A stretch of DNA of 64,000 nt from assembly GCA_037783545.1 (NCBI GenBank), contig JBBELK010000297.1, positions 1,674,001-1,738,000 on the forward strand. Direction: 5' to 3'. This document shows positions 8,418 to 58,545 of this stretch, one piece after another. Each line of letters starts with the position of its first letter. The stretch's first letter is position 1. Source of the DNA: Henricia sp. BOLD:AAB3569 (taxonomy: Eukaryota > Echinodermata > Asteroidea > Spinulosida > Echinasteridae). A program made the position numbers and the translations under genes. A model generated the notes under the pieces. That model did no database searches. It was not told the origin of the DNA and was given only the letters and a program-made list of their open reading frames with translations.

Positions 8418-8592
8418 TGCTCTACAGCAGACGATGGCTACAGGTGGCAGTTCCCTGTTAAGGGGCATGGCCACTGAGCCAAGAGTACGAGCTTCAGGGT
8501 CTAGGGTCAACCGTCCCCTAGGAGGAGGAGTAGATGATAACTTCCGCTTTAACTGGATTGGTGACAGGGATGAGGACAGGCCAAACAACTAT
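8418..8592 (+). CDS. PCM1: PCM1 exon 1 (first coding exon)
   Basis: The acceptor ttatttaacag precedes 16 untranslated bases and ATG at 8434. The protein begins MATGGSSLLRG; human PCM1 begins MATGG. It ends RDEDRPNNY before gtaatg, in phase 0, comparable to human DDRLNN. An acceptor ahead of the start codon means at least one 5' untranslated exon lies upstream. Confidence 0.88.
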
Positions 8593-17500: not shown

Positions 17501-20500
17501 CAGTTTCACAAACTGCAAATATATTTGTGGGAGTGCATAATAGACGGCAGTGTCTACGTTAATAGACCTTTATCATGGTGCGTCTATCTTTGTCTTGTTC
17601 CCCATAGTATGTGTCGGGTACAATCGGTGCGTCTGCGCGACCGCACGATATAGCACGTCTAATCTACATTGTTGTTTTGAGAGAATCGCTGTCCGGGCTG
17701 CGTGTTTTCTCGCACACAATGAAAAATTTGGTTACGTTTATTTTAATAGACAATAAGGGAAGATGGCTGCACCTTGATAAAGGTGTATTCGGTCTAAACA
17801 ATTGCTGGTAATCTGAAATGTCTATTTACAGAGCGCAGGGAAACAGTTTACTGGTTTTAGTGTAGACCCAGTAACATTGGCAACACACAAAGGGTGACGT
17901 TTTCACTTTTGTACTTGTTGGGGGTACGACTTATTTTGCAACACCCCTTTCTCATGCCCCCTTGGCAATGCATACCCTAGTACTAATCTGTACTCTACAC
18001 TGTTTTGTGACAGCTTCACACAGCACACTTGATATGAGCGTCCAATCAGAGCACACGGATGATCCATTATCAGCCCCGTTGGCACCGTTTGATCGCAGCA
18101 GAGGGGGACTGCCAAGCTTGAATGAGCAGCGTCGCGAATTACTCATGAACATTCTCTCAGAAGACTCCGAACGTCGATCGTCTGACATGCAGAGAGCTAG
18201 GATGCTGGATCAATTAGACTTGGCCGACAGAGAGCAGGTATACCCCCTCCCCCAGTTCCTCACCTCCCCGCAGTGGCTGTTGTGTTGCCAGGTCATACTT
18301 TACTGATATCCCAAGGCACAAACACAGTAAAGCCGAGCGTATATCTACCATGCAACTGGAAGCAACTAGTGGCAACTGATGTTTCTGGCAACTAGAAGCA
18401 ATTCGCTATCAGGTTCGTCGATGTACATGTACTTGCAACTGGTTGGTGTCAGTTGAACGTGTGTGTCTTATCACATGCATAAAGGGTGCTCGACAGTATT
18501 TTGAGACCTCTGTAGGATGTCGTCAAGGCGCCCTCGATCGGCAGCAAATGCGAAAAACGATCAATAGGTACGAATTCATGTGTCTGCTCCAACAGCATTT
18601 CCCAGAGCAGATGCGCCCCATGGCTAAACTCGGGCGAGTGGGAAACTGTGATTATGCGAAACACATCAACGGCAACTGTTATTTTGGGCTGCTTCCAATT
18701 GCAAGGTCGATGTACCCTGGGCTTAAAAGGAGCAAAGATGATAGTGTCATTAGACATGGCTGAGAGAGAGAGCACGTTTGCCCCTACCTCGTAAACAGTT
18801 TTGCAAATGGCTGTTGTTTCCAGCTCATAATTTATTTAAATTGTAAAGTACAAAACAATGTAAAAGGGGCCAAGATGCTAGGCTGACAGGAAGCCAATAT
18901 ACCCCCCTAGAAATCAAACACCAAAGTTATGCAAGTACATCTTGCGTTGCCAGCTCATAATGTACTGAAATCGTGGAGCACAAACCACTTTAAGGGGTCA
19001 GTAATTTCGTGTAATGTTCGCCTTTTTCTAATGGCATTTTTTTCTGAAGTCAAATTATCAGTATCTTTGCTGTGGGAATCACTTTGTTATAAAAAGCTTA
19101 GTTCCCAAGTAGCCCTAGAAGAGCAGAAACTCAGGGATTCACTTTAGGCAGAGTGGTGCACTCTACCTCAGTGGCTCTTCAAGAGTCTACTTAGTCATTT
19201 CCCAATTGGTGTTCATACACGTTACTGACCGATAAAATATTTTATATATTTCAGCCTTCTTGATATTTTGGTATATTTCCATTTTTGTTTGTTTGTTGAA
19301 CCATATAGAAGGATTCGCCTGCCCTGAGCAGTGAGCATGAACACCTGTTGAGCACCCTGGAAGCTTTACAACAGAAGAAGAATCACATGGATGAACTGCT
19401 CCGACAGCTACAGACACTCAGACCCAGTATACCAGGAGCAGTAGGTGAGTTATCTCAAAGCTTGATGCTCATACTCTCTGGCTATGTGGGGACTGAGCTG
19501 CACTGTGACACATGCAAGTGTCCTTCTTGAAACCGTGCAGTACTTGCATAACTTTCAAAGTTTTGAATAAGTGCTTGAGAAGAAGGGGTACCTCTGACAT
19601 AAATCGTGCTTTGTATGGAAGCAATTTGTGAGTACTTTTATATGCTTTTTTGTAATGAATTGAGTGCCTAAAGGAAGCAAGTAACGGACAAAGTCTGGCT
19701 TCACTTATTAAAATGTACAGTTCCATATCTAAGAGGAGGAACATTGCCAGTATAAACTGGAACGGAGTGGTTTATTCCAGTTCTCTACCATATCGATCCG
19801 AATGTCGTTTTTATTTCTCTCTAGACACTGATTGTGCAGTGAGTGCTGCATCTTCCAGTCAGCTAGTGAACCCAACTCAAGAACAACATACTGAGCTAAA
19901 ACATTGCCAGTATAAACTGGAACGGAGTGGTTTATTCCAGTTCTCTACCATATCGATCCGAATGTCGTTTTTATTTCTCTCTAGACACTGATTGTGCAGT
20001 GAGTGCTGCATCTTCCAGTCAGCTAGTGAACCCAACTCAAGTACAACATACTGAGCTAAAACATTGCCAGTATAAACTGGAACGGAGTGGTTTATTCCAG
20101 TTCTCTACCATATCGATCCGAATGTCATTTTTATTTCTCTCTAGACACTGATTCTGCCGTGAGTGCTGCATCTTTCAGCCAGCTAGTGAACCCAACTCAA
20201 GAACAACGTACTGAGCTAAAACATTGCCAGTATAAACTGGAACGGAGTGGTTTATTCCAGTTCTCTACCATATCGATCCGAATGTCGTTTTTATTTCTCT
20301 CTAGACACTGATTCTGCCGTGAGTGCTGCATCTTCCAGTCAGCTAGTGAACCCAACTCAAGAACAACATACTGAGCTAAAACATTGCCAGTATAAACTGG
20401 AACGGAGTGGTTTATTCCAGTTCTCTACCATATCGATCCGAATGTCGTTTTTATTTCTCTCTAGAAACTGATTGTGCAGTGAGTGCTGCATCTTCCAGTC

Positions 20501-23500
20501 GGCTATTGAACCCAACTCAAGAACAACATACTGAGCTAAAACATTGTCTGTATAAACTGGAATCAAGTGGTTTCTGTTCTAACTGAGCACTTAAAGCCGT
20601 TTGTTGTTTTTCTTCAGACACTGATTCTGTCGTGAGTGCTGCATCTTTCAGCCAGCTAGTAGACCCAGCTCAGGAACAACCAACCGAAACATTGACAGTA
20701 TAAATTAAGATTGAGTGGCTTTCTGTTCCAAACGAATATTGAATGCCTTTTTTCTTTCTCTTTCTAGACACTGATTCTGCCGTAAGTGCTGCATCTTCCA
20801 GTCAGCTAGTCGACCCAGCTCAGGAACAACCAACCGAAACATTGACAGTATAAATTAAGATTGAGTGGCTTTCTGTTCCAAACGAATATTGAATGCCTTT
20901 TTTCTTTCTCTTTCTAGACACTGATTCTGCCGTGAGTGCTGCATCTTCCAGTCAGCTAGTCGACCCAGCTCAGGAACAACCAACCGAAACATTGACAGTA
21001 TAAATTAAGATTGAGTGGCTTTCTGTTCCAAACGAATATTGAATGCCTTTTTTCTTTCTCTTTCTAGACACTGATTCTGCCGTGAGTGCTGCATCTTCCA
21101 GTCAGCTAGTCGACCCAGCTCAGGAACAACCAACCGAAACATTGACAGTATAAATTAAGATTGAGTGGCTTTCTGTTCCAAACGAATATTGAATGCCTTT
21201 TTTCTTTCTCTCTCTAGACACTGATTCTGCCGTGAGTGCTGCATCTTCCAGTCAGCTAGTCGACCCAGCTCAGGAACAACCAACCGAAACATTGACAGTA
21301 TAAATTAAGATTGAGTGGCTTTCTGTTCCAACCGAATATTGAATGCCTTTTTTCTTTCTCTTTCTAGACACTGATTCTGCCGTAAGTGCTGCATCTTCCA
21401 GTCAGCTAGTCGACCCTCCTCAGGAACAACAAGAGGAAGTGAAGGAGGCACAAGTTGTTGGGTCATCAGATGAAAATGAAGCTATGGATAAATTAAGGTA
21501 GGATTATGCTAGATTCATACTGAGCCGTTTCACGCAGTAAAGGCAGAGGATCGTCAATGCACGCGTAAGACCAAATTCGTGCCATGAAATACGCAGCTCC
21601 ATAGCAAAGGCATGGAGCTGCATATTTCGTGGCACGAATTTGGCCTTGCGCGCGCATTGACGAGCCTCTGCCTTCAACGTGTGTAAATTTGACGTGCATC
21701 AAAAACTTGGCGCAGAGAGAGTATTAAAGGGGAAATGATGCGATGAAAACCACAGAATCAACTACAGCATCAACTACAGCTCGCCTTTTGGTGATTGTGA
21801 TTCTCAGTGCCTCCCCTCGCACCAAATATCCTCTGTGCCGCTTTTTCTCACAGCGACACACGTCAAAGTAACACATGCTGAGGGCAGCATAGTTAAAGGT
21901 AGAGTACATCATTTGCAGTGACCCCATTTGGTGAGGGCTGCATGCTTAAATTTGCAGTGACCCAATTTTTTTTTCATGAGTTGACAAGAAAAACATTACT
22001 AATAGAATTTATTTCAGTCCAAAATGGTATTTTGTGTGAGAAATTAACAACTGAAGGTGGTTTTCTATAAAAAAAGTCTTTTACAAAAGACTTCACCATT
22101 AAACTCAACACGAAAACCATGCATGGATTTTTCAAGTTTTCTTCAGTATAACCGCACCTATGTGGTTGAAATTTCTACAGGGCAGTTTTCTGAACATGGG
22201 CTTTTAATCACGAGTTGATATAACATCCTTTGTAACAGTTTACCAATCATGTACTCTATTTTGAAGGACTACTTTGTTGTATTTCAGGAGAATGCAGGAA
22301 GTCCGTCAGCGCCTGGATGATTTACGTGACTTGGTCCAGCAATACCAGGGTTTTGAGCAGAGTTTACCCGCTGCGTCATCATCCACTCTTGCCGCTGGGG
22401 GCAGCGTGGACGAAACCGGCGATGCTAGAAAGACATCATCGTCTGTAAACTTTGAAGACCCTGAGCTGATGAGTAATTTAAGACGGTTAGAGAGAGGGGA
22501 GCCGGTGGGGCAGTTTAGGCAGAGAAACCAGGAGTTAGGACAACAGGTAATGGGCTGTAAGGCGAAGCGTCACAATTATTTTACCCGTTTGCCCGCGGGC
22601 TGAACGCGAGTGGCGGGCCGGAACGGGGTTATTATTTTTAATACCCCCGGGCGCGCGCGGGAGCCCGCCCGATCCCGGCCCCGTTCCGGCTCGCGTTCCT
22701 GTATGAGAGCAGCGATCACGGTGTATGAGCACACGGGAGAAGCAACACAACGGAAAAAGTATCCGATGTATTGTAGGCCTATATGTCGGCATATTTGCAG
22801 GGTTCAACATACAAGGCATTGTACACAAAGAAAAACCGACTTCAGATAAATGTATTTAGATTTGAAACGTTTCTTTTTTTCTACTGCAGGTACATGAAGG
22901 GGGCAAAAGTCGGTCGTTGAACTTCGATCGAACAGGAATAATAGGAAATTTTTTTACAAATTTGAGGCTGTGCACTTTACGTTTTAAAATAATTATTGCT
23001 GGTTTACGATCGATCATGCCTCGGGGGTGGGGGGTTGGAAGTTGAAGCAGCAATTATCAGTACGCGTAGTAAATCTTTTTCTCGGAATCACCCAGAGTTC
23101 GTTTTGAGTATTATACTATTAAAACTTGCGAGCACGCGGCTCACTTTCTTTTTTTATTATTTTTGTTTTTTGTAGATGTGCATAATCCTACCGACAAAAA
23201 CCAGAATACACCCTTTCCATGCTCGTTGTTTAGGGATGAACCATTCCTTTTTCCGTCAGTTGTTTGGAGTTGAGTAGGCAACACCATACGGAACTTTATC
23301 CCTGGTGGAGCTAATCTGCGAATCTGGTTCTTGTGCGTGCATATTTAACCTACTTTCCCAGTTCCTCGTATCGTTGGCTAATTCCCACACAACGTTCTGT
23401 AGTACAGGGTGGTATTGCGTGTACAGGGTGGTATTGCGTGTACAGGGTGGTATTGCGTGCTCAGGGGAAAATCCCTTTTCGTGCACAACGGCTGTTCCCT

Positions 23501-26500
23501 GTACAAATAACTGAATGCCTTGCTACAAGCGCAGTATAGCGGGAATGTGATATAGTGCATAATTGTACTTTTGCATGGTTGTTTGCCAAAACCTACTAGC
23601 ATGGCCGCTATATACATATGTACATAACATCACGTAATCATGTAGTGGCTAGTGTACCTGTTAATAATATTTACAATGAATGTGCATATTGTTTCGTGCG
23701 TTTCTTGTTTACTTTTCTATTAGAATGACTCCTGGCATATTACAAACATTATTACCCACTGAAAAGCAGATACGAACTTCAAAAAGAATGACAATGACAA
23801 CGAACTTTGCGATCGCTTTTCAAGGGATAATATACGAAAAACGGTCGAGTAGGTCCACAAAGTAATATAAAAATTGGGCCGGATGGTGTGACAGCCATAA
23901 AAATGTTTGTCACAATGTATAAACGCCCCTCTCCCCGAGTTGTCCACACAATAACAAACCCCCGATTTCCCTCGAGGGAAGTTCGTTCACCGAGTGCGTC
24001 CACACTTCCACAAATTCCTGAGTTTATTTTTTAGTTTAATAGTTGGCGCGGTGTGCTTGCTGCATGCATGTACCCAGACTGGCACAGTGCAGTGAACAGT
24101 CGTCGGGATTGTAAAAGAGCACGTGCGCAAACAAGCTTCCTGCACTGTGGCGTGGGCGCGGCGAGGACCGACCCTGGATGATTTTCAGTACCACTGTACT
24201 GTATGTACCAGGGTCCGCCAACAATGTACTTGTATATAGGCCTTATACAGTGGTTCAACTTGCGTGCAGGGTTTAAAAGATTCTAGGGCGCTACAAAAAC
24301 ATGCTGAAAAATGCAAAAACGATTACCTCATAATTTGTATTGACATTTTGCGACACATATCCACTTCGGACCAAGCAATGTTAAACATGGATTCTCATGA
24401 ATTTTCTCTTTCAGTTTTGTGTTTTTATTAAAGTAGATTTGACAAGCTTGGTTTAAAGAGATAAAAATCCTTATCGGTACACAAAGCTAGAATATTTGTA
24501 CACGAAAAATGTACATCAATATACAGTGGCGGGGTACGAAATGTGCCTTCCTAAAAACGCAATTAAAAACACCACTGCTATTTCTGGATTCTGGCTTTGG
24601 TTATAATGATGTCTTCGGGAGGTACAAAGTCAATCAAGTCGAAAGATGTTTCCGACGAACTTCGCTTGAGAAGGCAAAGGAAAAGATAAACCCGGCGTTT
24701 CTGCCTGGAATTTTACCTACGAAATCCGTATTATATCGTACATGCGTATTCAAATCAACACACAAACAGTCAAGTTTCCACTTCGAAATCAAACATACCA
24801 ACAATTATAAAAAGGTTTATTTAATAATACAGAACTTGCCACTACACTGTTCAGAAAGATTATCGAGCATATTTAATAAACAATCCGGGTCCAGCAGTGC
24901 CAAACATCACTTTCACATTTCTCAACATCTTCGGATACTGTTGCTGGCGTGCTTGCCCGCGGGCGGTACGCTCAGTTGTCGTGTTCACTGACGCACGCAT
25001 TTTGCCCGCTCTAGCCCGCCGCCTGGCTGAATTTGTCCCGCTCGCGCCCGCTGGATCCCGGGCCTATTGTCCGGTATAATTCCATCCCGGGCAGAATGTT
25101 AGAGAACGCGGGCGCGCGCGGGCGAACGGGTAAAATAATTATGACGCTTCGCCTAAACAAACGTGTGATTAAATGTGATTAGTGCGTAACACTGTCTCGA
25201 GACAGTGATAAGGGGCGTTCACACTATCGCGGAAAAGTGGCTTTGCGCGCACCTGTTCTATTGGTTTGTGCAGGAGCTGGTTTGCCGCTTGTGCCCGGCC
25301 TCTCACGATGCGCAAAACATTTCAAGCTTTGTCAAAGTTAAGATTTCTTGAACTGTGAGCGCGGTGCGCTGACCTTTCCAACACGCGGCCAATGAGGTAT
25401 CAGACCAGCCCCAAGTTACCGCAGTGGAATTTCCAATTTGGTATGATTGGCGATGAGTTGCCATGAGCACAGCGCGACAGCATGGTTTTTCCTCGATAGT
25501 GAACACCCCTTTATGGTGGGACAGGGAAAGAATTTCACAGAGACCTTTTCCCTCGATGTAACAACGTCCATTTCCCTCTATGTAACAACGTCCATTCCCC
25601 TCGATGTAACAACGTCCATTTCCCTCAATGTAACAACGTCCATTTCCCTCGATGTAACAACGTCCATTTCCCTCGATGTAACAACGTCCATTTCCCTCGA
25701 TGTAACAACGTCCATTTCCCTCGATGTAACAACGTCCATTTCCCTCGATGTAACAACGTCCATTTCCCTCGATGTAACAGCGTCCATTTCCCTCTATGTA
25801 ACAGCGTCCATTTCCCTCGATGTAACAACGTCCATTTCCCTCAATGTAACAACGTCCATTTCCCTCGATGTAACAACGTCCATTTCCCTCTATGTAACAG
25901 CGTCCATTTCCCTCGATGTAACAACGTCCATTTCCCTCAATGTAACAACGTCCATTTCCCTCGATGTAACAACCTCCATTTCCCTCGATGTAACAATGTC
26001 CACTTCCCTCGATGTAACAACGTCCATTTCCCTCGATGTAACAACGTCCATTTCCCTCGATGTAACAACGTCCATTTCCCTCGATGTAACAACGTCCATT
26101 TCCCTCGATGTAACAACGTCCACTTCCCTCGATGTAACAACAAGAAAAAATACACTTAACGCTGAAATGTGTACTTGCTCGCAGCTTGACGCAGCAGACG
26201 ATGGCACCTCATCCCAACAATCTGAGGATGATTCCCAACTAGTGACTACAGACAGTGAGAGTAACCACAGCTTGCTGCAAACTTGGGGAGACGATCCAGA
26301 GATCAGGGGAAAAATAGAGTAAGAATTATTTCCTTATTGTTTTTAAGGGGCCTGCTTAGTTGTAAACATTTTCACAAAAGGGGATGGGGTCGAAGGCTGC
26401 TTAGGACATTACATGCACTGTAAAATGTTGACATTTCATGGTACTGACAGAAAAATGTTAAGTACTATTTGGTGGGCGGAGGGGAAGGGGGGCGGGGGTG

Positions 26501-29500
26501 AGGGGGGGATGGAGGGTGGTCTTGAAAAATACTACTCTTCATAGAACTATGAGAATGTTGACAACTTTGGAATGTTGACTTAAAAATGTTTTAAGTCGAT
26601 CTAATAAGTCGATCCAGAGATCAGGGGGAAAATAGAGTTATTGTTTCCTGATTGTGTTTAAATCTGTTAATTAAACATAAATAAATCAGAAATACTTTCA
26701 GAAATGATTGTTTTGTCTGCCATAACAACACAGACAGTCCAGAAACTCGCTCAGTGAGTCCAGATGACCAATCTATTTGATCTTATACGCATAAATACAA
26801 ATATTGACTAGGAAACTACAAGATGCCAAGCGTAAGCTGCGTCAACTGCAGGAACTGGTCAGCATGGTTCAGATGAGCCCTGAGGCAGCCATCAATCTTC
26901 CTGATGACCTGGCTGGATTAGCCGCTGGTCTGCAAGATGAATTCGCTGAGGCTTCATCCTCCAAGGCGGAACAAGACGATCAGGATTCAGAAGACACTGA
27001 GGAGGAGGAGGAAGAGGAGGAGGAGGAGACCAATCCAACAACCTCTGAGATGAGTGAAGGAGTGCCTCAAGTCAGCCAGGAAACTAGGTATGGATGTGGT
27101 GGAGAGGTTTACCTGACCGATCCCATCCAGTAGTTCGGGGTAGGGTTGTAGTCAAGTCATTCACAAGCCTTCACAAGTCCCTGGGTCTTAAAAATCATTT
27201 ATTTTGGAATAGTAATTAACAGGGCTAAAGATATAAAACTTGCCAATCTTCACACCCCCACCCTAAAAATAAAACAAAAATGCTCAGCCCTTATTGGTTA
27301 GTTTTAATATTGAAAGTAACCAATATTTGTTTGTTTTGTTGACGATCTTAGGGAGGCATATTTTGAAGCTAAAATGCAGCAGCAACGACGTGAGTTGGAC
27401 AAACTGCAAGAGGAACGCCAGAGACTCTTGGCTGTTCAGCAACAACTACGGGAACTAAACCAGCAACTGCCTAGAATGCAACAGGTAGGAATGATTATGT
27501 ACAGTTATCAATTGTCTCCTAATCCTCCCCTTCCCCCTCCCCCTTCCCCCCTCCCCCTTCCCCCTTCCCCCCTCCCCCTTCCCCCCTCCCCCTTCCCCCT
27601 TACCCCCTCCCCCTTCCCCCCTCCCCCTTCCCCCTTACCCTGCCCCACCAACGATGTGAGTTGGACAAACTGCAAGAGGAACGCCAGAGACTCTTGGCTG
27701 TTCAGCAACAACTACGGGAACTCAACCAGCAACTGCCTAGAATGCAACAGGTAGGAATGATTATGTACAGTTATCAATTGTCTCCTAATCCTCCCCTCCC
27801 CCTTCCCCCTCCCCCTCCCCCCTCCCCCTTCCCCCTCCCCCTTCCCCCTTACCCTGCCCCACCAACGATGTGAGTTGGACAAACTGCAACAGGAACGCCA
27901 GAGACTCTTGGCTGTTCAGCAACAGCTACAGGAACTCAACCAGCAACTGCCTAGAATGCAACAGGTAGGAATGATTATGTACAGTTATCAATTGTCTCCT
28001 AATCCTCCCCTTCCCCCCTCCCCCTTCGCCCCTCCCCCTTCCCCCTTCCCCCCCTCCCCCTTCCCCCTTACCCTGCCCCACCAACGATGTGAGTTGGACA
28101 AACTGCAAGAGGAACGCCAGAGACTCTTGGCTGTTCAGCAACAGCTACGGGAACTCAACCAGCAACTGCCTAGAATGCAACAGGTAGGAATGATTATGTA
28201 CAGTTATCAATTGTCTCCTAATCTCGCTCCCCCCCCCAATCAACGATGTAAGTTTGACAAACTACAGGAGGAACGGCATGTGTATTGCAATCAGTAGGTC
28301 AACTCAAAGAAGACCGATTTGGCATGTTGTGGTGTTGAATTTCAAAGGACACTGAGGCCAACTGGAGATGTACCAAAGTATGTGGTTTGCGGTAGCACCA
28401 TGTGAATCTCTTTTGTATATGTGTGTGGTTCAGAAAAGAACCGGTGATATGAGTGTGAACTCAACGTTTCGAACAGTGTGCTTTGTTTATCTTCAGGACA
28501 TTGATGTGTTTTATATTTGATTCCTTGATAGGGATTGAAGTCTACAAATACAACAAGGCAGAATCCATCAATGTTTGATCCAAGGCAGTCGTCTGCCTCC
28601 AACGTACAAGGTGAGAGTAGAACATGCTTGCATTAAATGTAAACCTTGTTGCTTTGCTTGTCATATGTGACCTGCCACGGCATAATGAGAAATGTCCCCT
28701 AAATATTAAAACCCCGTAATCGGTGCCTGAAATTAAATATACGTGAAAAATGTGTCCACAAGCAATTTCTTTTTTGTTTTGCATATTTGCATTCATAAGT
28801 ATTCTAGATTCATCCTAGAGTAGTTGGTTTTGTCAAAATGTTAAATAAACCTGTTAAAAAGGAGATTTTCTGATTTTCGTCTGCATCAGCTGTGTAACAC
28901 AAGTTTTTTTCAAAGTAGTTTTTCTCGAAAAGTCTTTCTGGTAACGACAACGCACGGAGTCATCTTTGTTGTGTCGTATTTCCAAAATGCAGTAAGTTAC
29001 AGAAACAAATTTGGTGTCATTGGAAAGCTGAAGAACTAGTCTTTCTTCTCATACGTAAACCTCAAAAAGGCAAACGTGGGGGACATTCCTCATTATGCCG
29101 TGGTAGGTCACATATATTAGACTTTACTTCAGCCCTTCCACTGTAAAATATTTGCTGCGATTTACACACATTTAGGTACAATTTGGGAAAGATGTATAAA
29201 AAGAATCTTGCTAACATTTTGACTTTCTACGTGAATTACATTTTACTCTTGAATTGATTGAGTGCATCACAGAAAGGACTGAACCCAAATGAATGTCCTT
29301 GGTCCAGTAGATATTTCAAGCCCTGAATCTCAAATTAAAATGGCTTATTTGTCATGGATGCAAGCTTGTTTCTTTTGTTACAGAAGTTTCTTTATTGTTA
29401 ATCTTTTCAAGATATGTCGACTTCAAACCGAGAGACGTTAATAGTGGAGAAACTGAGACATCGCCGTTTGCAGACTGAACTGAAACTAAAACAACAGGAA

Positions 29501-32500
29501 CTTGCTGCACTCATGGACCGTGTCAAACGCAATAATACAGTCAGTATCACACCATATCCTATCATAGCTCTAGTTAGGGGTCAGTTTGACATGTCATGAG
29601 TGCTCGAATCCATTGCAATTCGCTGAATGCTTCATAAGGTTGTGACTGAACTCAAACTAAAACAACAGGAGCTAGCTGCACTCATGGACCGTGTCAAACG
29701 CAATAATACAGTCAGTATCACACCATATCCTATCATAGCTCTAGTTAGGGGTCAGTTTGACATGTCATGAGTGCTCGAATCCATTGCAATTCGCTGAATG
29801 CTTCGTAAGGTTGTGACTGAACTGAAACTAAAACAACGGGACCTAGCTGCACTCATGGACCGTGTCAAATGCAATAATGCAGTCAATATAACACTATATC
29901 CTATCATAGCTCTAGTTAGGGGTCAGTTTGACATGTCATGAGTGCTCGAATCCATTGCAATTCGCTGAATGCTTCGTAAGGTTGTGACTGAACTGAAACT
30001 AATACAACAGGAACTTGCTGCACTCATGGACCGTGTCAAACGCAATAATACAGTCAGTATCACACCATATCCTATCATAGCTTTAGTTAGGGGTCAGTTT
30101 GACATGTCATGAGTGCTCGAATCCATTGCAATTCGCTGAATGCTTCGTAAGGTTGTGACTGAACTGAAACTAATACAACAGGAACTTGCTGCACTCATGG
30201 ACCGTGTCAAACGCAATAATACAGTCAGTATCACACCATATCCTATCATAGCTCTAGTTAGGGGTCAGTTTGACATGTCATGAGTGCTCGAATCCATTGC
30301 AATTCGCTGAATGCTTCGTAAGGTTGTGACTGAACTGAAACTAATACAACAGGAACTTGCTGCACTCATGGACCGTGTCAAACGCAATAATACAGTCAGT
30401 ATCACACCATATCCTATCATAGCTCTAGTTAGGGGTCAGTTTGACATGTCATGAGTGCTCGAATCCATTGCAATTTGCTGAATGCTTCATAAGGTTGTGA
30501 CTGAACTGAAACTAAAACAACAGGAACTTGCTGCACTCATGGACCGTGTCAAACGCAATAATGCAGTCAATATAACACTATATCCTATCATAGCTCTAGT
30601 TAGGGGTCAGTTTGACATGTCATGAGTGCTCGAATCCATTGCAATTTGCTGAATGCTTCATAAGGTTGTGACTGAACTCAAACTAAAACAACAGGATCAT
30701 GTCAAACACAATACTATTGTCAATATACTTGTCCTCCAACAACAGATTGCACTTTCTTTGCATTTAATTTTGTGATACTCCTTGCTGTAAAAAGGCAGGT
30801 CACAATCCTGCATGTTTCATATCTACCTTTTCATTTCTCTAATGCAGGGGAACGTTAATTCAGACAGTAGTTCTGCTCAAGGGGATAGCAACGATAACGA
30901 TCTATTCCGGTGAGTTGAATATTTTACATTAGTGAGCTAAATGGTGATTACATGAAAATCTTGCTGAGCCACGACTGAAACATGTGACGATAATACATGT
31001 AATGAATGATTCTTGCTGAATCCATCCAACACCGGCTAGCTCAATGGTCGAGTGGTTAAGACGTCTGCCTTGTTTGTAGGAGGTCGTGGGTTTTAGTCCT
31101 ACCCGAGCATGATATGAAGTTTTTCATTGCGTCTTGTGAAAGCATTGAGTATACAGTGTTAATAGTTATGTCAGGAAAGGGCGAAACAAACTCTAATTAA
31201 CATGTTATAGCCTAAAATTATTGAAATGAAATGTTGAGAATGTTAAATCATTTCAACCACTTAAAATTATTTTGAGCGCCTAAAATATATGCCACAATTT
31301 AAGTGATGACAGGGTTGTATGTATTGGTCAGACAGCCATCTAGTTGAAGCAAAATGGTTCTGGTAATCCCTTGAAGCCCGCGGTAATAATGGCAACAGCG
31401 CCAGGAGTATCCTGTAGGGGGAATACCACAATCTAACCGCTGATAGGGTTGTGCGCCTTGGCCAGGCAGCCACCTAGTTGAAGCAAAATGGTTCTGGTGA
31501 TTTTCTGATGGCAGCAATAATAATTGCAACAGTACCAGGAGTATTCTGTGTGCTATACAAGCACAATAGTTCGAAATCAGACTTTTTAATCTGGGAGAAT
31601 GACATTAGTAGTATAGAAAGATACATGCATTAGTAGTATAGAAAGATACATGCATTAGTAGTATAGAAAGATACATGCATTAGTAGTATAGAAAGATACA
31701 TGCATTAGTAGTATAGAAAGATACATGCATTAGTAGTATAGAAAGATACATGCATTAGTAGTATAGAAAGATACATGCATTAGTAGTATAGAAAGATACA
31801 TGCATTAGTAGTATAGAAAGATACATGCATTAGTAGTATAGAAAGATACATGCATTAGTAGTATAGAAAGATACATGCATTAGTAGTATAGAAAGATACA
31901 TGCATTAGTAGTATAGAAAGATACATGCATTCTTCAGACTTTTTCTTTGATTGACAATCTCATCCCTGGTTATTGTATGTTTTGATGTGATTGGTTTAGT
32001 GTCAGCATGCGTAGTGCCGATGTGACTGCCGCTGCCTCATGGGGAGGTTCTACACAGCAAAGTGATGGGGATGACGATGATGCGTATCCTAGCGACGGAA
32101 TTCTTCAAGTGGAAGAAGAAGAGGAACAGGTAAACAAAACTTTTTTGTTTGTTATCGTTGTGCATTCAATAGCGCAATACGTTTGCATATCGACAATACC
32201 TTCAAAGGTATAGGAAAATACCCAATACAGGGATGTAATTGTTACCGGTTTCCCCTCAACTTTCTTTTGTCTCGGTGGTTTGCGATAGAGACTTTTCTGG
32301 GAAAAACCGGAACAAATAACATCCCTGCCAATACCAGCATACGTATTGTGCCGATGAATGTGCTCCAGATCTTAGTCAGGTGTTGGTGAAAGTTCTAGTT
32401 ATATCTTTTATAAAAGGACAAATGTCTGTTTCCAGTTATGTATGCAACTTTGAGGTGTCGTTTCTTGATTTATAAAGTGTTTTTAGACTTACTCTGTCCT

Positions 32501-41500: not shown

Positions 41501-44500
41501 TTATTGAGTCGGTCCAAATGATGTTAAATGGATGTAATTTGTCCATACATGACGCGGTACTTGCACTGTACTAAATAGTAAATACGTCTTCCTAGTGTGC
41601 AGGAGGTCGTGGGTTGGAGTTCCACGTGAGCGCGCTAGGAGTTTTTAGCGCATTATCGGGAAACACAGTATATAGTGCACGTAGCGCGTCGTATAAGAGC
41701 AAATTACATCCATTTGAAATTAGTCATATCATTTGTAAAATGATACTAGACGCATAAATAGTGGCAATATGGACGCAACATAGTTAATAAGAATGCTGTA
41801 ATCGAACAGACGAACCGAACAGGACCGAAATGAACATTTCACACAGTTCGGCTGTTCGGGAGTGGTTCACTTTGGATTTCACATCTTACATATTTTAACT
41901 GTAAATGTGAAAGAGAGCCGGCTTCCTGAATGTCAAAAACGCACCCAAATAACTTCTTATACTTGCAAAAATGCTTCGTATTTAACTGTCATATGGGTGT
42001 TTCTATAAATTAGGGGTCCAAAAGTGTGACATTTGGTGTCCCCCGTTACACCTGATATGTGTTATTTTTTATTTTGTATATTTATATTAATTGTACTTTA
42101 TGTACTCACTCTTTGAGATGGAAAGTATTTAAAGAATGTGCCTGAATTTACAAAAACAAGATGTAAAATGTAACGGGGGACACCAACACTGGACCCCTAA
42201 TTTATAGAAAGACACATATGCACTGTACAAAGTAATTCTTGTGCCGAACCAGATCCGACATTTTGAGCCTGGCGCCAGCACCCACCGTACCGACATGCAT
42301 GACATGACTTAAAGGGCCCCTTATTTAGGATTTTTATCAATGAAATCTATGCTTTAAAACCACTCTACTCAGTTAAAGTCATAAAAATCCTATTTGGAGC
42401 TTGCTTTGGGGGTTAAAACGAAGGTTTTTAATTTTTATGCTAATGCAAATATGCATATTCATGACCAAGGTCACTATGTCACAAGAGGCACAGACAGGAA
42501 AATCACATACAATTGTGCACAAACGATTCCACTTTTTTCTCAATTTTCCTGAAACTTTTGTAATCCATGGCTGTTTGAGTTTGATTTACATGTTGCCTGC
42601 TGTAAGCCATGATAACAGTGGGGGTAGAAACTGCAGCAATTTGCCACAAGTCCAACTTGAAGTCTTATGTTTTTTCTTAACTTTTCCCTTCTGTCTTCCT
42701 TATGTGATGCACTCAAAACAGCGCCCTCTGTCTGTGATTTATTGCAATGAAATCTTCAAAGTTGCAAAAGGCCACCTTTTATTGATTTTACATCCAAACG
42801 AACAATAGTATGTCTTGCTGAACAAGTATTCCATCATTATGAAGCAAAGCTTAGGCACAAAGTTATTTTGGATGTCACAGGCCCTTTAACGATCAATATC
42901 TACACGGATGATGCTCGATTGTATATGTTGTATTGGCTTCATCGCAGCAACATGCCAAAGATATATAGTTACCACGCAGTACGCATCTGCACGATGTGCT
43001 GATAATTGTCGATTGATCGGTTTGATTGCAAACATTTGCATTGTGAAAATGGCGTATTGGGAGTGAATTCTCCCGGCAGTGAATTCTCCCGGCAGTGAAT
43101 TCTCCCTCTTTGTAGCCCTATGTGAGTCCATCTACTCGGAGGTTGCAACCCTCATCTCCCAGAATGAAGCCCGCCCTCACTCACTCACTATCTGTTTGAG
43201 CTATTCCGTGAGCTTCAGATGCTCAGTTTCTGTTCACCAATGTTTGTTTGATACCTTCTTTACTCCTCAGGGAGTCGGATGCAGCCAGTGAATTCTCCCT
43301 CTTTGAAGCCCTACGTGAATCCATCTACTCGGAGGTTGCCACCCTCATCTCACAGAATGAAGCCCGCCCTCACTACCTAATTGAGCTGTTCCGTGAGCTT
43401 CAGATGCTCAACTCTGATTACCTCCGACAGAGGGCGCTCTACTCGCTGCAGGATCTCGTGGCCAAGTTCCTGACGGAAGAGGGGGGTCAGGTCCCGACGG
43501 AATCAGCTGCAGGAAGCTTGGTAAATCACATGTTGTTAATTGATACCCTCGTGTTCCAATACTGCCGATATCGGTTGTGCGATACACAATAAATGCAGAT
43601 GTGATGTAAAACATCCTGTTCCCAAGTGGTTGAAATTCTGAATTGCTTAGTCTTTTAAGCCAAAATATTTTGACTTTACCTAACTTCTGTATTGGGGAAC
43701 AGTGGGCCTACTTTCTTAAGATCACATCTGGGTAATACTTCACAATGTCACCTCAGGGGCTGTCCATAAAGTACGTACGCATGAAATGGCAACTTTTTAG
43801 ACCCTCCCCCTGTACACAAAATTTGTGATGTCACCTATATACTTTAACAGTGGGTGTACGCAATAGCTCTAACTCGCCCTTCCCTCCGCCTCTCCCCTTT
43901 CCTCCCTTTCCCTCCCCCCACCCCCTCCGTGTGTACGTACTTTATTGTGAAAATTCAATTTTTGACAACTGGAATTTTTCATGAGCAGCAGCAGCATGAA
44001 CAACAGCAGCCTTCCGATCCTCGCATGTTGTGGCATTTATCAACCACGGCTTCAGAACAGACACCCAGTGAGAGCATGATCACATCAGATGAGGAAGAAA
44101 TTAAGGTAGTCATCTGATTAAAAGCCCTACATTGTCATTATTCTTGTCTTAATTTGACAATTTCTTCAAAAATTCTGGTGTCGCTGAATTAAACCAAAAG
44201 CTTGACAATAAGACTGGATCGACTGGCTTCAAACTGTAGTCATATTTTGGATGTGTTCAAATGAACAAACCAAAAGCTGTCCACCTTAAACTTTTGAAAA
44301 TTTGGTTTCCGATATAAATGTTTTTTTTGGTATAATTATGGAGCAAAAAAAAAAATAGTACTATCGCCTTCATGTTCTCATTTTGACAGTCTTTTTGAGG
44401 GAACTTTCTTTGGCCCAGTTTGTCTAATCTATTACAAAGTTATCCTAACATTTTTAACTTTGAATAAATTCTGCTGGGGTTGGAATGTTAGGCCAATTAT

Positions 44501-47500
44501 TTTGCAATGTGATTTTACAACAGGTTGGTATTTGTTTCATGTATTATTTGTTTTGCTCTTCGGCTAATTTATCTTTGAATCTTTAAACAACGGGCTTAGG
44601 TTTGGGTCCTGGCTTGGCCTAGATTTCTCTGCAAAGTTCAAAATTTCTCTTCATAAATATGCCATAACCCTTTAACCATCGATAGGACAAATTTAATAAC
44701 TGTATGCATTAGAAAAAATGACGGTTGAAAGTTTATTGTAATATTTTGTGGACAAAATGTTTAAGTTGTTTTGTAATAAGCATGATAAAGGAGCGTGTCC
44801 AGATTTTGATACCATAGCAATTGTCATATTTTTCTCAATACCATTCTAAAATTTCGCGTTCTCAATATATATATTTTCTAGGATATTGTCAAAAAACCAC
44901 AGATGTTTTGTAAACTAATTTATCTGGTTCCATAAAGCAGTGCAGTGATTACTCTAACCTGTTTGCTTCCACGTCCAAATTAAAGATTGCAAATTTCCCG
45001 TTTTCTTCCCATAGATAGTACTTTGGGGAGGCATTAATTTGTGGAGCGAAATTTGTTTTCTGGAATAAACTGAATACACTCCTTTAACTAAAGAAAATGC
45101 TTTATTTAATTGGCAGGCGCAGGTGTACAGCACCAACCCTAAGAAGAAAGACAAAACCCCAGTGGTACAATCTCTGGGCTCGTTAGACGCTGAAGAATAT
45201 GATTATGTGGAAAGCGTTGGGTCTGCAAGCTCCCTGTCAACACCGCCTTCGTTTAGTCAAGACTTTGGATTCGCTAATGATGAGTTGGGAGACACGGTCA
45301 TACATTTAGACAAGGCACTACAGGTATTAGTGGCCATTTGTTAGATAGATGTCAAATACTTTGGGCAACACTTCGCATTTAAAGACCTTTTTCTTCTGGT
45401 AAAGAAGGGATTGGTCTTATGGACCCCCTGTGTGGCCCTGTTTCCATCAGCCTTGGGGAAAAAATATTGGACCACCTACATGTATAAACTGACAACAAAA
45501 ATTAGTACATAACATTTTGTTATGGGAAGTTTTATAGCAAGCCTCCTGAGCTCTGTATTTTTAAAACTTAAAAACAGTTTTGTTTTTTTTTATTCTGAGG
45601 CTCGATAATTATATGCAACCATAGTTTAGTTTAGTTTTTCTGTTGTGTCCTTTTTTATTTGCACAGAGGATGCGTGAGTACGAGCGTCTAAAGGCAGAAG
45701 CCGAAGCCTCAGCCGTCGTTTCATCAGAAGCTTTAGCCTCAGCTGATAACAAAGCTGCCGTTAGCAGTGAAGTGACTAGCGACAGCTCAGCTCAGGATGT
45801 CGGCAGTGAAAGCTCCTACTCAGATCTGCCTGTAAGTAGGAACACGGCGTTGTGAATAGTAAAGGTAGCTCACGGTAAAGTAGTTTCATAAGCCTGATGA
45901 GGCGTTATAACAAAGCTGCCATTAGCAGTGAAGTGACTAGCGACAGCTCAGCTCAGGATGTGGGCAGTGAAAGCTCCTACTCAGATCTGCCTGTAAGTAG
46001 GAACACGGCATTGTGAATAGTAAATGTAGCTTACGGTAAATTCGTTTCTTAAGCCTGATGAGGCGCTATAACAAAGCTGCCGTTAGCAGTGAAGTGACTA
46101 GCGACGGATAGTTAACTATTGTCCTCGTTTTAACTTTCTCAAGGACTAAAGTTGACTAAGTTTCACTTCATTTTGTTGACAGTACCCCCGCATTGACACG
46201 CGGCAGTTGGACCTTCAGATTAAGAGCATCATGCAAGAAGTCATTCCGTATCTCAAGGAGCACATGGACGATGTTTGCTCCCCACAGCTCCTATCTTACA
46301 TCAGACGTCTTGTACTCACTCTCTCCAAGCAACGTGATGACAGTCGGGAGTTTGTGCGATTCTTCAATCGACAGTTGGGATCAATACTGCAAGATTCACT
46401 GGCCAAATTCTCAGGAAGAAAGTAAGCATGGTGAAAATATGTCAATAAAATGTGTCCTTCCCGTAATTAAAGTTATATTGTCTGTGGTTTTAAGAACGAA
46501 TTTGTAAAGCTTTTCCCCAGTACCTTTCCTCATCCATTTATCTGCCATTGCACCCTTTATTCTCCTAGTGGCTTTCTACTCCAGTGTGTTTTGCTGCTAG
46601 ACTGTCTCCCCTTGTGTTCTGCCTTAGCTGATATTTGTATGCACAGCATTTCGTTTGCCTTTTGTAAAACTCCGTTAGGCCAAGAATGTTAATCCATTAT
46701 ATTTTTGAGTGAGTTATTAACAAAGTTGTCATCCTTTGGTTGCTTTTGCCTCTCCAGAATGCGAGAATGTGGTGAAGACCTCCTTGTGGACATCTCTGAG
46801 ATTCTCTTCAATGAGCTGGCATTCTTCCGTCTGATGCAAGACCTGGACACGGCTGGCAGCAAACTGAGACAGGAAGGGGAGAATTTGGAGGAGGAGCCAG
46901 AGGAAGAGGGAGAGGAGGAGGAGGAGGGTGAAGAAGGGGAAGATGGGGCTACTGGAACCGAGACGGGGAATGAGACGGGAACAGCAGCTGAGGAAGGATC
47001 GGAAGGTAGGAAGTGATTAAAAGACTGATAAAGCAATAGAACCACTGGCAATCTCAGATGAATATTCTCAACCATAATATACAAATATTGACTGCAATGA
47101 GGGGCATGGTTAAGATTATAGGCCCAAGGTAATCTCGAAGCCATGACCATGCCCCGAGGCGGAAGCCGAGGGGCATAGTCATGGCTTCGAGATCACCGAG
47201 GGCCTATAATCTTAACCATGACCCGAATAAACAGCAGTCAATATTTGTTTTATATACCGAATGTGTAGATTTTTGTCATCTGGTTGGTTAAAAGTAACGA
47301 TACATCATACGTACAGTCATGACAGTGGTCCTTCGAGTTTCGATTTCGGAAGTTGGTCTACGGCGGAAAAGTTGTATATTTACAGCAAACATTTGTAGCA
47401 TAATCACCTGGCACTTTAGTAGCACATTTCACCTGACACAGTTTTCACTGTAGGCCACTTCTCTCACTTTCTTAAGGACTTCATCATCTACGACAGACGT

Positions 47501-50500
47501 CGAAATTCCGCCATTACCGTCCTGATGAATGTTTACGTGAAGCGCCCAGCTGCATAGTTGGTGCACAGCTATGCTAACACATGTAATGCGCGCGTCCGGA
47601 ACCCGCTAAATGACTATGCCCGGGGCATGGCAAAGACTATTGCCCGGTGGGCATATACGCGCCGGGTCTAGCCGATTCAATGCCCCCACTTTTAACCAAT
47701 CAGATGACAGGAATCTACGCATGAGGTATATAACTAGAGATAGTGACTGGTTCACTGGTGTCATCACTGGTCAAATTAGCAAAGGCTGCGTTCGGGCGTG
47801 CAGTTCTCGTTACTTGGGAGTAATGCGTGCGCATTGCACTCGGGTCACATCACGCGAACGGCAAGTCCGCAGTCCGCGTGCGCGAATAGCAATCATTGAA
47901 GATGGCCGTCTCTTAATGCCATCACTGCACAAGAAACGCCGTTTAAATGCTCACAAGAAACTGAGGAAATACAGGCCGTAAGTCGCGAGAACCTTTGATG
48001 CCGTCCAAAACAAACCTTAGTGAGTTGTTGTTTCAGTTATTGAGTTGACACGTTGAGCAAATTCACCTAAAATCCCACCCATATTTCGCCGTCTTCGTAC
48101 AAATCACATGACTCTCGTTGGGAGTAAGAGCACACTCCCCATTTGTTGGGGAGTACTGAGAGCATACTCTCACTGACCCGAGTGTCGTTATTCTTGCCGT
48201 TCGCGCGCGCAGGAGTATAACTCGTGTTAACACGAGTACACGCCCGAACGCAGCCAAAATGTCAGCAACATGTTTCTGGTGAAAAACGTTCCTGGATCGG
48301 TGTATTATTTTAGCATGCGCACGTATCTCAAAGATACCAATAAACATCTGTCACAATTTGAACACACACAGGTAGCAGTTCTGAAGGTGAATCTGACTCT
48401 AGCTTGTCAGACGATAATAATGAAGCGCCCTCTACTGGCAATCAGCCGCCAGCTGCTCCACAACCTCAACCGAAGCCGTCTTTTGATGAAGCAGCGTTGG
48501 AGACGGCCATGGACATTGCAACGTCCAGGGAAGAAGAGGAATTGGGAAAGGTATACCTGCAGTTAGGTCACTTCACGTACAGTGGTGTCTATGTCGCAGT
48601 AGATAAGATATAACCAAACATGGGACATTACACCCATCACCCAAGGGGGAGGGGACGTTGGAGTAAAGGTAGTTAGGTCACTCCACGTACAGTGGTGTCC
48701 ATGTCGCAGTAGATAAGATATAACCAAACATGGGACATTACACCCATCACCCAAGGGGGAGGGGACGTTGGAGTAAAGGTAGTTAGGTCACTCCACGTAC
48801 AGTGGTGTCCATGTCGCAGTAGATAAGATATAACCAAACATGGGACATTACACCCATCACCCAAGGGGGAGGGGACGTTGGAGTAAAGGTAGTTAGGTCA
48901 CTCCACGTACAGTGGTGTCCATGTCGCAGTAGATAAGATATAACCAAACATGGGACATTACACCCATCACCCAAGGGGGAGGGGACGTTGGAGTAAAGGT
49001 AGTTAGGTCACTCCACGTACAGTGGTGTCCATGTCGCAGTAGATAAGATATAACCAAACATGGGACATTACACCCATCACCCAAGGGGGAGGGGACGTTG
49101 GAGTAAAGGTAGTTAGGTCACTCCACGTACAGTGGTGTCCATGTCGCAGTAGATAAGATATAACCAAACATGGGACATTACACCCATCACCCAAGGGGGA
49201 GGGGACGTTGGAGTAAAGGTAGTTAGGTCACTCCACGTACAGTGGTGTCCATGTCGCAGTAGATAAGATATAACCAAACATGGGACATTACACCCATCAC
49301 CCAAGGGGGAGGGGACGTTGGAGTAAAGGTAGTTAGGTCACTCCACGTACAGTGGTGTCCATGTCGCAGTAGATAAGATATAACCAAACATGGGACATTA
49401 CACCCATCACCCAAGGGGGAGGGGACGTTGGAGTAAAGGTAGTTAGGTCACTCCACGTACAGTGGTGTCCATGTAGCAGTAGATAAGATATAACCAAACA
49501 TGGGACATTACACCCATCACCCAAGGGGGAGGTGGGGGGGGGAGGGGGGGATAGGGGATAGGGGGGGTTGGGGGGGGTAGGGGATAGGGGGAGGGGTAAT
49601 GTAGTTGGGTCATTCAGAACAGCAGTGTCCATGTAATATTATAATGAGTTGTCTTAAAGGAGTGACCAGGGGTCGATTTCACAAAGATTTGTGACGCGTT
49701 GCAAGTACCAAATTGCTGTAACTCGTTGAAACCGTGGAAACATTACGTAGGTTCTTTGTGAAATCGACCCCAGATCACATTTTTGAACCCACTTTTTTCC
49801 CTATGGGTGTTGAAATTTGTATATATCATTTGGGGGCCGTCCATAAAGTACGTACACACGGAGGGGATTGGGGGGAGGGGGGGTGGTGGAGGGGGGAGGG
49901 GGAAGGGGGTTTCGAGCCAGTGGATGGATGATGTCACAAATTTTGCCAAACAAATGTGTACTGGGGGGAGGGGGAGGGGGGAGGGGAGGGGAGGGGAGGG
50001 GAGGTGGAAGTCTAAATAGCCGGTATTTTGTGCATACATACTTTATGGAAGGCCCCTTTGTCATATTTTTCTCATTACCATTCTGAACTTTCACGCTCTC
50101 AATCCGTATATTTTCAAGGATATATCAAGTTTATCCGGTTCCATAAAGCAGTGCAGTGATTACACCAACCCTTTTGCTTCCACATCCAAATTGAAGATTG
50201 CAAATTTCCTGTTTTCTTGCAAATTTCCTGTTTTCTTCCCATGGATAGTATTTTGGAGAGGTACTTTATGATTGTTATAGGTTATCTGGAAAAATCTGAA
50301 CAAGCTCCTTAAAAAAAACCTTTGGATGACAGAAAAAAATTACATGGGCCTTCATGAAATTTGAATTGGTTGATGATGTTCCTTTGCCAACAGACACGAG
50401 ATGACGATTTGGCAAGAAAGCTAGAAACGAGTGACAAAGATGAGTAAGTCTGACAACCTGCATTGCAACTTGCCATAATCTTTGCAACCTTAAAACATAG

Positions 50501-53222: not shown

Positions 53223-53880
53223 TGATAGGCACAAGTAATAGATATGGGTCTTTTTTCAAATCTCAACTTGGGCTCAGGCTCCGGCTCCATGTAAACCACA
53301 TGGAGATGAAGACAGAGACGAAGCCGAGATTTGGAAAAGACCCCTAGTCTTGTTAAAGGTTCCCTCTTGTTAGGTTAAATTTAGACTGAAATTGTCCTTT
53401 GTTGAAATCAAAGGGACAATCAGGGGATAATATTGATACAAAACTAAAGCAGAGTCAAGCAGAATGGTACATGTGTATGTAGTGATAAATAAATCTCGTG
53501 TCTAACAAGGTTTCCCCTTGTCAGGAGTCTTAAAATATTACCACATTCTTGAACGTCATTGGGTTAGATGTAGAGCGTAGAATTGTTCGTTGTGAACATC
53601 ATGCTGCATGGGGGACGATACTGCCACAAAATCAAGGGATTGGGCACAGTCAAGGAGAATGGTACGTAGTTATAGATCTAGTGTCGCAAAAGGTTCTCTC
53701 TTGGTTAAAATATAAAAATATTGCCACGTTCTTGGAGTTTTCCATCAAATCTCACTGCAAAATTAGCGGGCATATGTTCCAACACTTGCAGTCTCCTTCG
53801 AGGGCAAAGTGACTCGGACATGCAAAAAACCACATCAAAACTAGAATGGGTTGGAACAAAGGGTAAGTCAGGGGCTGGGG
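53223..53880 (+). repeat. PCM1 3' flank with decayed copies of exon 38 tail and a foldback
   Basis: The exon 38 tail (caggggataatactgcc to gagaatggta) recurs in decayed form at about 53419-53490 and 53605-53690. A small foldback with gggtcttttt-type ends lies at 53246-53343. A possible polyadenylation signal AATAAA is at 53488-53493. Confidence 0.75.
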
Positions 53881-58029: not shown

Positions 58030-58545
58030 GACATTTTAAAGGAATTCCTTTCAAGGGTAGTGCGTTAACAAAATGGAAGTGTGTTGAGGTATAGGGGAAG
58101 TCCCTTTGTCACATATCGTGTGCAAGGTAGGGCAGAGGGGGTGGGTGGGAGGTGTAGTGCGTTAACAAAATGGAAGTGTGTTGAGGTATAGGGGAAGTCC
58201 CTTTGTCACATATCGTGTGCAAGGTAGGGCAGAGGGGGTGGGGGGAGGGGGTGGGTGGGAAGTGTAGTGCGTTAACAAAAGGAAGTGTGTTGAGGTATAG
58301 GGGAAGTCCCTTTGTCACATATCGTGTGCAAGGTAGGGCAGAGGGGGTGGGGGGAGGGGGTGGGTGGGAGGTGTAGTGCGTTAACAAAAGGAAGTGTGTT
58401 GAGGTATAGGGGAAGTCCCTTTGTCACATATCGTGTGCAAGGTAGGGCAGAGGGGGTTGGGGGGTTGGGAGGTACAAAAGGGAAGAGTGTGTTGAGGTAT
58501 AGGGGCAGTAGGGGAAGTGTATGTCACATATCGTGCTGGGTGTAG
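58030..58545 (+). repeat. Tandem array of about 95-123-bp units
   Basis: Five copies contain gtgtgttgaggtataggg, gaagtccctttgtcacatat and gtgcaaggtagggcagaggg. Copies differ in the number of gggggtggg blocks. A distant relative lies at 55705-55800. Confidence 0.92.

Follow-up and report, generated by a model that had tools for sequence, protein, structure and literature searches.

The window analysed here is a stretch of 64,000 nucleotides (C297:1674001-1738000) from an assembly that was searched as 740.7 Mb in 2104 contigs. It contains a PCM1 gene whose 38 coding exons can be read through without an internal stop to give a protein of 2264 aa, stop excluded (Table 1). The name PCM1, first given to the gene in a sequence-only reading of this DNA, was confirmed both by a 467-aa C-terminal query, which retrieved 67 proteins with Pfam PF15717, many of them named PCM1, and by full-length homologues. 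Specifically, the best matches of the whole protein were from sea stars (Patiria miniata 72%, Acanthaster planci 69%, Asterias amurensis 67% and A. rubens 69%), and a full-length alignment with these four relatives gave 70-75% identity. On these matches the host is a sea star, probably of none of the four species, and amphioxus was rejected as a host. The 3' coding end in the window reads GAG AAT GGT ATG TAG and the four relatives end in ENGM or ENGT, so that exon 38 is terminal. Positions 52812-53119 within this exon consist of coding repeats of a IVSGEAALAGDP-like motif, a stretch mostly absent from the PCM1 proteins of the other four sea stars, which indicates that the protein itself has been altered by tandem duplication as well.

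Copies of exon-intron junctions were searched for with 300-nt queries around each exon edge, a copy being counted when it lay within 4 kb and extended 6 nt or more to each side of the junction (E 0.01). Junction-crossing copies were found at 9 of the 74 PCM1 edges, amounting to 51 copies, and affected three acceptor edges (exons 11, 22 and 26) and six donor edges (exons 13, 15, 17, 20, 21 and 30). About twelve exons had been proposed to be accompanied by copies of their own edge; nine of the twelve stood, and exons 27, 33 and 38 did not. The upstream copy at exon 27 has its start some 15 nt within the exon, and the junction-copy test found no copy spanning the junction of exon 33, although the end of the exon 33 array unit, TTGGAGTAAAG/GTAG (the slash marking the boundary), resembles by eye the end of the exon, TTGGGAAAG/GTAT, across roughly twelve bases, a resemblance which may be the source of the exon 33 entry in the sequence-only reading. 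Exon 38 was rejected as a donor-bearing exon; it is terminal, and its “donor” copies are therefore degenerate copies of the coding end. TRF listed arrays in the window with periods matching those given earlier, arrays that multiply only donors and arrays that multiply only acceptors both exist, and every edge array corresponds in sequence to the edge of its own exon, as would be anticipated for independent local expansions and not for a single dispersed, introner-like family.

Table 1. The PCM1 coding region and its repeat arrays and copies, in positions of the window.
Feature	Position	Strand	Description
PCM1 coding region	8434..53222	+	38 exons, 37 GT-AG introns, stop TAG 53220-53222
Exon 11 (21368-21497), mirage-like acceptor array	19740..21431	+	10 extra copies, periods 160 then 150
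Exon 13, donor copy	26607..26661	+	Single, degenerate; 58 aligned columns, 84%
Exon 15 (27352-27484), mirage-like donor array	27380..28237	+	3 extra copies; about 105 nt exon plus C-rich intron
Exon 17 (29412-29539), mirage-like donor array	29473..30696	+	6 extra copies, 171 bp; 2 with weakened donor
Exon 20 (32800-32985), mirage-like donor array	32875..33205	+	1 extra copy, 161 bp; flanked by 9-nt direct repeat TCCTTCCCT
Exon 21 (34086-34287), mirage-like donor array	34221..36377	+	16 extra donors, 129/133 bp
Exon 22 (37543-37745), mirage-like acceptor array	36449..37644	+	8 extra acceptors, 123 bp
Exon 26 (41229-41454), mirage-like acceptor array	40613..41300	+	5 extra acceptors, 115 bp
Exon 27, interior, degenerate upstream copy	about 43093..43225 (end approximate)	+	87%; no junction copy
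Exon 30 (45667-45831), mirage-like donor array	45746..46105	+	1 complete extra copy and 1 truncated, 161 bp
Exon 33, intronic array	48561..49532	+	110 bp; begins 11 nt past exon; fails junction-copy test
Exon 38, coding end, degenerate copy	53601..53675	+	77 columns, 80%; no splice donor here

The eight strong PCM1 arrays share a common layout, in which the unit consists of 63-111 nt of exon together with adjoining intron (about 64 nt of exon and 85 nt of intron in the case of exon 11). In all eight, the reading frame is kept by the exon-proximal copy, i.e. the first copy in donor arrays and the last in acceptor arrays. At their intron-side ends several arrays are ragged by eye, being truncated within a unit or fading to diverged copies, as in the tail of the exon 15 array, which fades into a degenerate copy. 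The duplication at exon 20 carries the identical 9 nt TCCTTCCCT at both of its bounds, one in the exon and one in the intron, as expected if a short direct repeat had seeded the duplication. Array and exon coordinates further showed that 3184 of the 3255 nt of intron 21 (98%) are copies of the donor side of exon 21 and the acceptor side of exon 22. An intron made up almost wholly of copies of its own two edges raises the question of intron gain, i.e. that the present introns were created by tandem duplication of AG/GT segments, and the copies of exon 22 begin with CAG/GT, which can be read as an acceptor or as a donor. However, the array units include intron sequence, so that the intron probably existed beforehand, and we regard intron gain as quite improbable here. 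In the intron gain by tandem genomic duplication described in the available excerpts of PMC3443670, the process likewise involves tandem duplication at AG/GT, but in that process an exonic segment is duplicated and the intron is new, whereas in PCM1 an existing junction has probably been copied with its intron.

The PCM1 arrays are young and homogenised. Mean identity between adjacent copies ranges from 0.92 to 0.98 per array, and the exon 11 array is divided into sub-families, with four copies at 96-97% identity to the real one and six at 69-74%. The sub-families and homogenised neighbours show concerted evolution within the arrays, from which the end copies are left out, the intron-side ends of several arrays being degenerate or truncated by eye. 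Among the decoy copies, exonic parts were better conserved than intronic parts in four of the eight arrays and less well conserved in the other four; there was no consistent excess of exonic identity that would point to selection on the exonic parts across these eight arrays, and hence no sign of coding use.

The position of the arrays relative to exon edges was examined by reducing each array to a single unit and distributing segments randomly over PCM1. Depending on length, 17-31% of random intronic-or-edge segments crossed one junction. Among the high-identity PCM1 arrays with a period of at least 110 bp, eight of nine cross an edge against 2.07 expected (P 4.9e-5), and when four weaker duplications were added, with their probabilities typed by hand, the count became nine of 13 (P 4e-4); both values are post hoc, since the gene had been picked for its pattern. 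As a background, 20 random stretches were drawn, of which 15 were obtained (five contigs were too short) and three of the 15 were set aside as satellite of 273-297 bp; stretches L010, L012 and L018 consist entirely or almost entirely of such a satellite, with matches of 98-99%. In the 12 non-satellite stretches (120 kb) TRF reported no array with a period of at least 100 at 85% identity, as compared with nine arrays of that class in the 44.8 kb of PCM1. A looser self-alignment of the same 120 kb gave 19 clusters with a period of at least 60, which shows that tandem duplications are not rare in this genome and that it is the clean multi-copy arrays of long period that are.

Because PCM1 had been chosen for its appearance, an independent sample was taken from kinesin genes. 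A kinesin-domain search of the genome gave 128 matches, and 13 compact loci holding 48 of them were fetched, picked for the compactness of their exons and not for repeats. The sample comprised 49 exons (the 48 matches and one exon recognised later), 98 edges and 74.1 kb, with exon ends taken as the ends of the HMM matches; exons outside the kinesin domain are unseen in this scheme and may touch arrays that were counted as “non-edge”. The late exon, which ends at position 2199 of locus L027, was added because its array drew attention. Junction copies were present at six of the 98 edges, in four of the 13 loci, and the other nine loci had no edge copies. L020 has a copied acceptor (146 bp, 95%; the upstream copy is partial), L021 a donor with six junctions (162 bp) and L022 two copied acceptors (one of 83 bp, 97%, the other of about 170 bp, 75%), while in L027 the donor after VDLAGSECV is present as ten junctions (171/180 bp) and a second donor is also copied (110 bp, 87%). 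The phenomenon is therefore not confined to PCM1. With 9/74 edges in PCM1 and 6/98 in the kinesin loci, a difference with a Fisher P of 0.18 in what is a small sample, the idea that PCM1 holds an unusual concentration of such arrays was not supported by comparison within this genome, and PCM1 is not supported as a unique hotspot.

The kinesin loci also allowed the position of arrays to be examined in genes unselected for repeats. Five of ten clusters (period at least 60, identity at least 85%) cross an edge against 1.3 expected (P 0.004), or four of ten when the late exon is left out (P 0.03), these probabilities, like those that follow, being partly interpolated by hand. Restoring five clusters below 85% identity, one of them at an edge, gave six of 15 (P 0.009), or five of 15 without the late exon (P 0.04). 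An edge excess outside PCM1 is modestly supported by these counts, and the expectation that arrays lie at edges more often than random placement would allow is upheld by PCM1 post hoc and by the kinesin loci to a modest degree. The simplest rival is chance placement, according to which duplications arise anywhere, those within exons are purged, those in introns or at edges survive equally well, and a gene that happened to be rich in the latter was noticed. Such an account would be in keeping with the sizeable share of random segments that cross an edge, with the presence of tandem duplications in random DNA, and with the existence of non-edge arrays both in PCM1 (33668-33960 and 48561-49532) and among the kinesin clusters (five of ten). 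It is, however, at odds with the excess seen in PCM1, post hoc as that is, and again in the kinesin loci, and we consider it unlikely. The edge excess is not explained by tolerance alone.

Differences in copy number were seen between contigs. For the donor array of L021, six junctions were counted on contig C359 and two on C7. Sequence flanking the array on either side can be aligned between the two contigs, in pieces of 90.6%, 94.5% and 98.0%, of which the first takes in part of the array; C359 and C7 are alleles or very recent paralogues. The L027 donor is present as ten junctions on C821 as against two on C195, with two and at least three, respectively, at the exon next to it. C821 and C195 were dropped as a second allelic pair and prove nothing about alleles, because about 2 kb upstream on C195 has no match to C821. 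C195 thus carries the copies of the L027 exon next to an unmatched stretch (L034:1-2046, compared with L027), which may reflect inserted sequence, a rearrangement or a paralogue that is only partial. When the exon 11 array of PCM1 was used as a query against the genome contigs, only the contig of the window itself was matched. Elsewhere, one kinesin-domain segment was matched three times on C181 (about 1005480-1010664) with a spacing of 2462 bp and twice on C124 (about 614056-616873), a pattern that is possibly due to a larger tandem duplication containing an exon, with a copy number that differs on similar contigs. That stuttered reads were assembled into false tandem copies is extremely improbable, given that the copies differ from one another in a structured way, that similar arrays occur on several contigs and that one locus has different copy numbers on two contigs whose flanks align.

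The splice signals of the copies were scored with a matrix built from the 37 introns of PCM1 itself. GT or AG was retained in all 51 copies, and 48 of them differed from the real site by no more than 1 bit in score; the three others are the copy at exon 13 and two of those at exon 17. The sequence would thus allow decoy or alternative splice sites, as had been suggested for these arrays. Use of a decoy in place of the real site would introduce a stop into the lengthened exon in 49 of 50 cases (the exon 13 copy being left out) and shift the frame in the remaining one, so that decoy use would mostly destroy the message; overall, 32 of the 50 decoys shift the frame. For 36 of the 50 decoys, the best site of the opposite type within 250 nt on the exon side had a score under the 10th percentile of real sites; for the other 14 (exons 15, 17, 20 and 22) it lay above that percentile and below the median. 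An argument from exon definition is consequently plausible but not clean, 14 of the 50 decoys having a partner above the 10th percentile. The near-identical splice scores of 48 of the 51 copies, and the stop codon that nearly always follows from decoy use, as in a switch based on unproductive splicing, could be taken to mean that the multiplied sites are selected as a splicing regulator, e.g. by making some transcripts unproductive. We judge this very improbable: high scores are simply what young arrays would have, and three copies have decayed; moreover, 32 of the 50 decoys shift the frame, unrelated genes are affected, and copy number at one kinesin locus differs between six and two.

In the sequence-only reading no described case of such arrays was known, but amphioxus “mirages” are already in the literature (PMC3087553, PMC3902484). 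The available excerpts of these papers describe mirages in Adh3 and the globins BflGb6 and BflGb9 (PMC3087553), with PGBD5 added and TnC cited in PMC3902484. As in PCM1, the tandem unit spans an exon-intron boundary on its 5' or 3' side, GT or AG is kept in many copies, and evolution within the array is concerted. The globin mirages have a unit of 150-160 bp, a size that agrees with the arrays here, and six versus three units between haplotypes (PMC3087553), to which the difference between contigs C359 and C7 at the kinesin locus, as alleles or very recent paralogues, may correspond; somatic instability is reported for the Adh3 mirage. According to the data reported in the excerpted part of PMC3087553, regular splicing is apparently undisturbed by the mirages, and the same text calls the generating mechanism unclear and proposes mirages as a route to intron gain. 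The PCM1 arrays differ in coming from another phylum, in affecting nine edges with 51 copies within one gene, and in reaching up to 16 copies per edge. In the features that can be judged from DNA, they would appear to be of the same kind as the amphioxus mirages, in a second phylum; literature searches limited to open-licence papers found no report of an echinoderm mirage.

Other systems are less close, as far as the excerpts at hand describe them. Genes of human segmental duplications contain variable tandem repeats at exon-intron boundaries that are able to change splicing (PMC2812944), and they share with the PCM1 arrays their position at such boundaries, but their mean unit is about 30 bp, repeated 4 times, half of them are in coding exons, and in the excerpted account they are not described as copies of one junction. 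The fourth-exon duplications of earthworm metallothionein (PMC12783039) are exon copies near the gene that are not seen in the final transcript; the tandem repeats analysed there are in intron 1 and, in the available excerpts, are not described as junction copies.

Taken with the evidence on the alternatives, these likenesses favour the reading, to which we give a probability of about 0.78, that the PCM1 arrays are mirage minisatellites, that is, tandem duplications across exon edges that were expanded by unequal exchange, are tolerated and act mostly as passive decoys. A junction-crossing segment of 110-215 bp would first undergo tandem duplication, with short direct repeats as the seed, an origin that the sequence suggests for exon 20 only and that we infer for the other arrays. 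Copy number would then rise and fall by unequal exchange or slippage, accompanied by local homogenisation, and meanwhile the intron-side end would fray by truncation and mutation; the contig comparison at one kinesin locus points to such changes, which may be presumed for PCM1. Splicing would pair an exon's own two sites and so make use of the exon-proximal junction, and this is the proposed reason why the arrays are tolerated. As an outcome, introns would grow out of exon edges.

In a further extension, which is possible but which on balance we doubt, exon-intron junctions throughout the genome of this sea star would be hotspots of tandem duplication, owing to some process linked to exon architecture, such as nucleosome positioning, co-transcriptional structures or microhomology at splice sites, and this may be an old deuterostome feature, since the same is known in amphioxus. 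The rate observed is about one edge in eight in PCM1 and one in sixteen in the sampled kinesin loci. Such hotspots, if real, would drive intron growth and supply raw material for new exons and introns. More immediately, the arrays take a little-known oddity of amphioxus into another phylum and suggest that more than one gene is affected there. With up to 16 near-identical donors, or eight to ten acceptors, beside the true site, they offer a natural test of splice-site choice and, in PCM1, of intron growth from an intron's own edges, and genes with such arrays may be mis-annotated or mis-assembled.

In addition to the edge arrays, the window contains several other repeats. An array of 24 bp with about 25 copies occupies 25547-26141 and ends 43 nt before the start of exon 13 (26185), and a 25-bp array at 31603-31931, with 13 copies that are 100% identical by TRF, is probably very recent. 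The 134-bp non-edge element at 31292-31549 has, by eye, the same family look as a sequence in reverse orientation at a kinesin locus (L025:7426-8000) and is probably a dispersed repeat that is not derived from an exon. Two intronic matches resembling tRNA-Thr (16585-16657 on the minus strand and 31038-31110 on the plus strand) are probably tRNA-derived repeats. Downstream of PCM1, a 109-bp array with a G-rich linker is located at 58057-58509.
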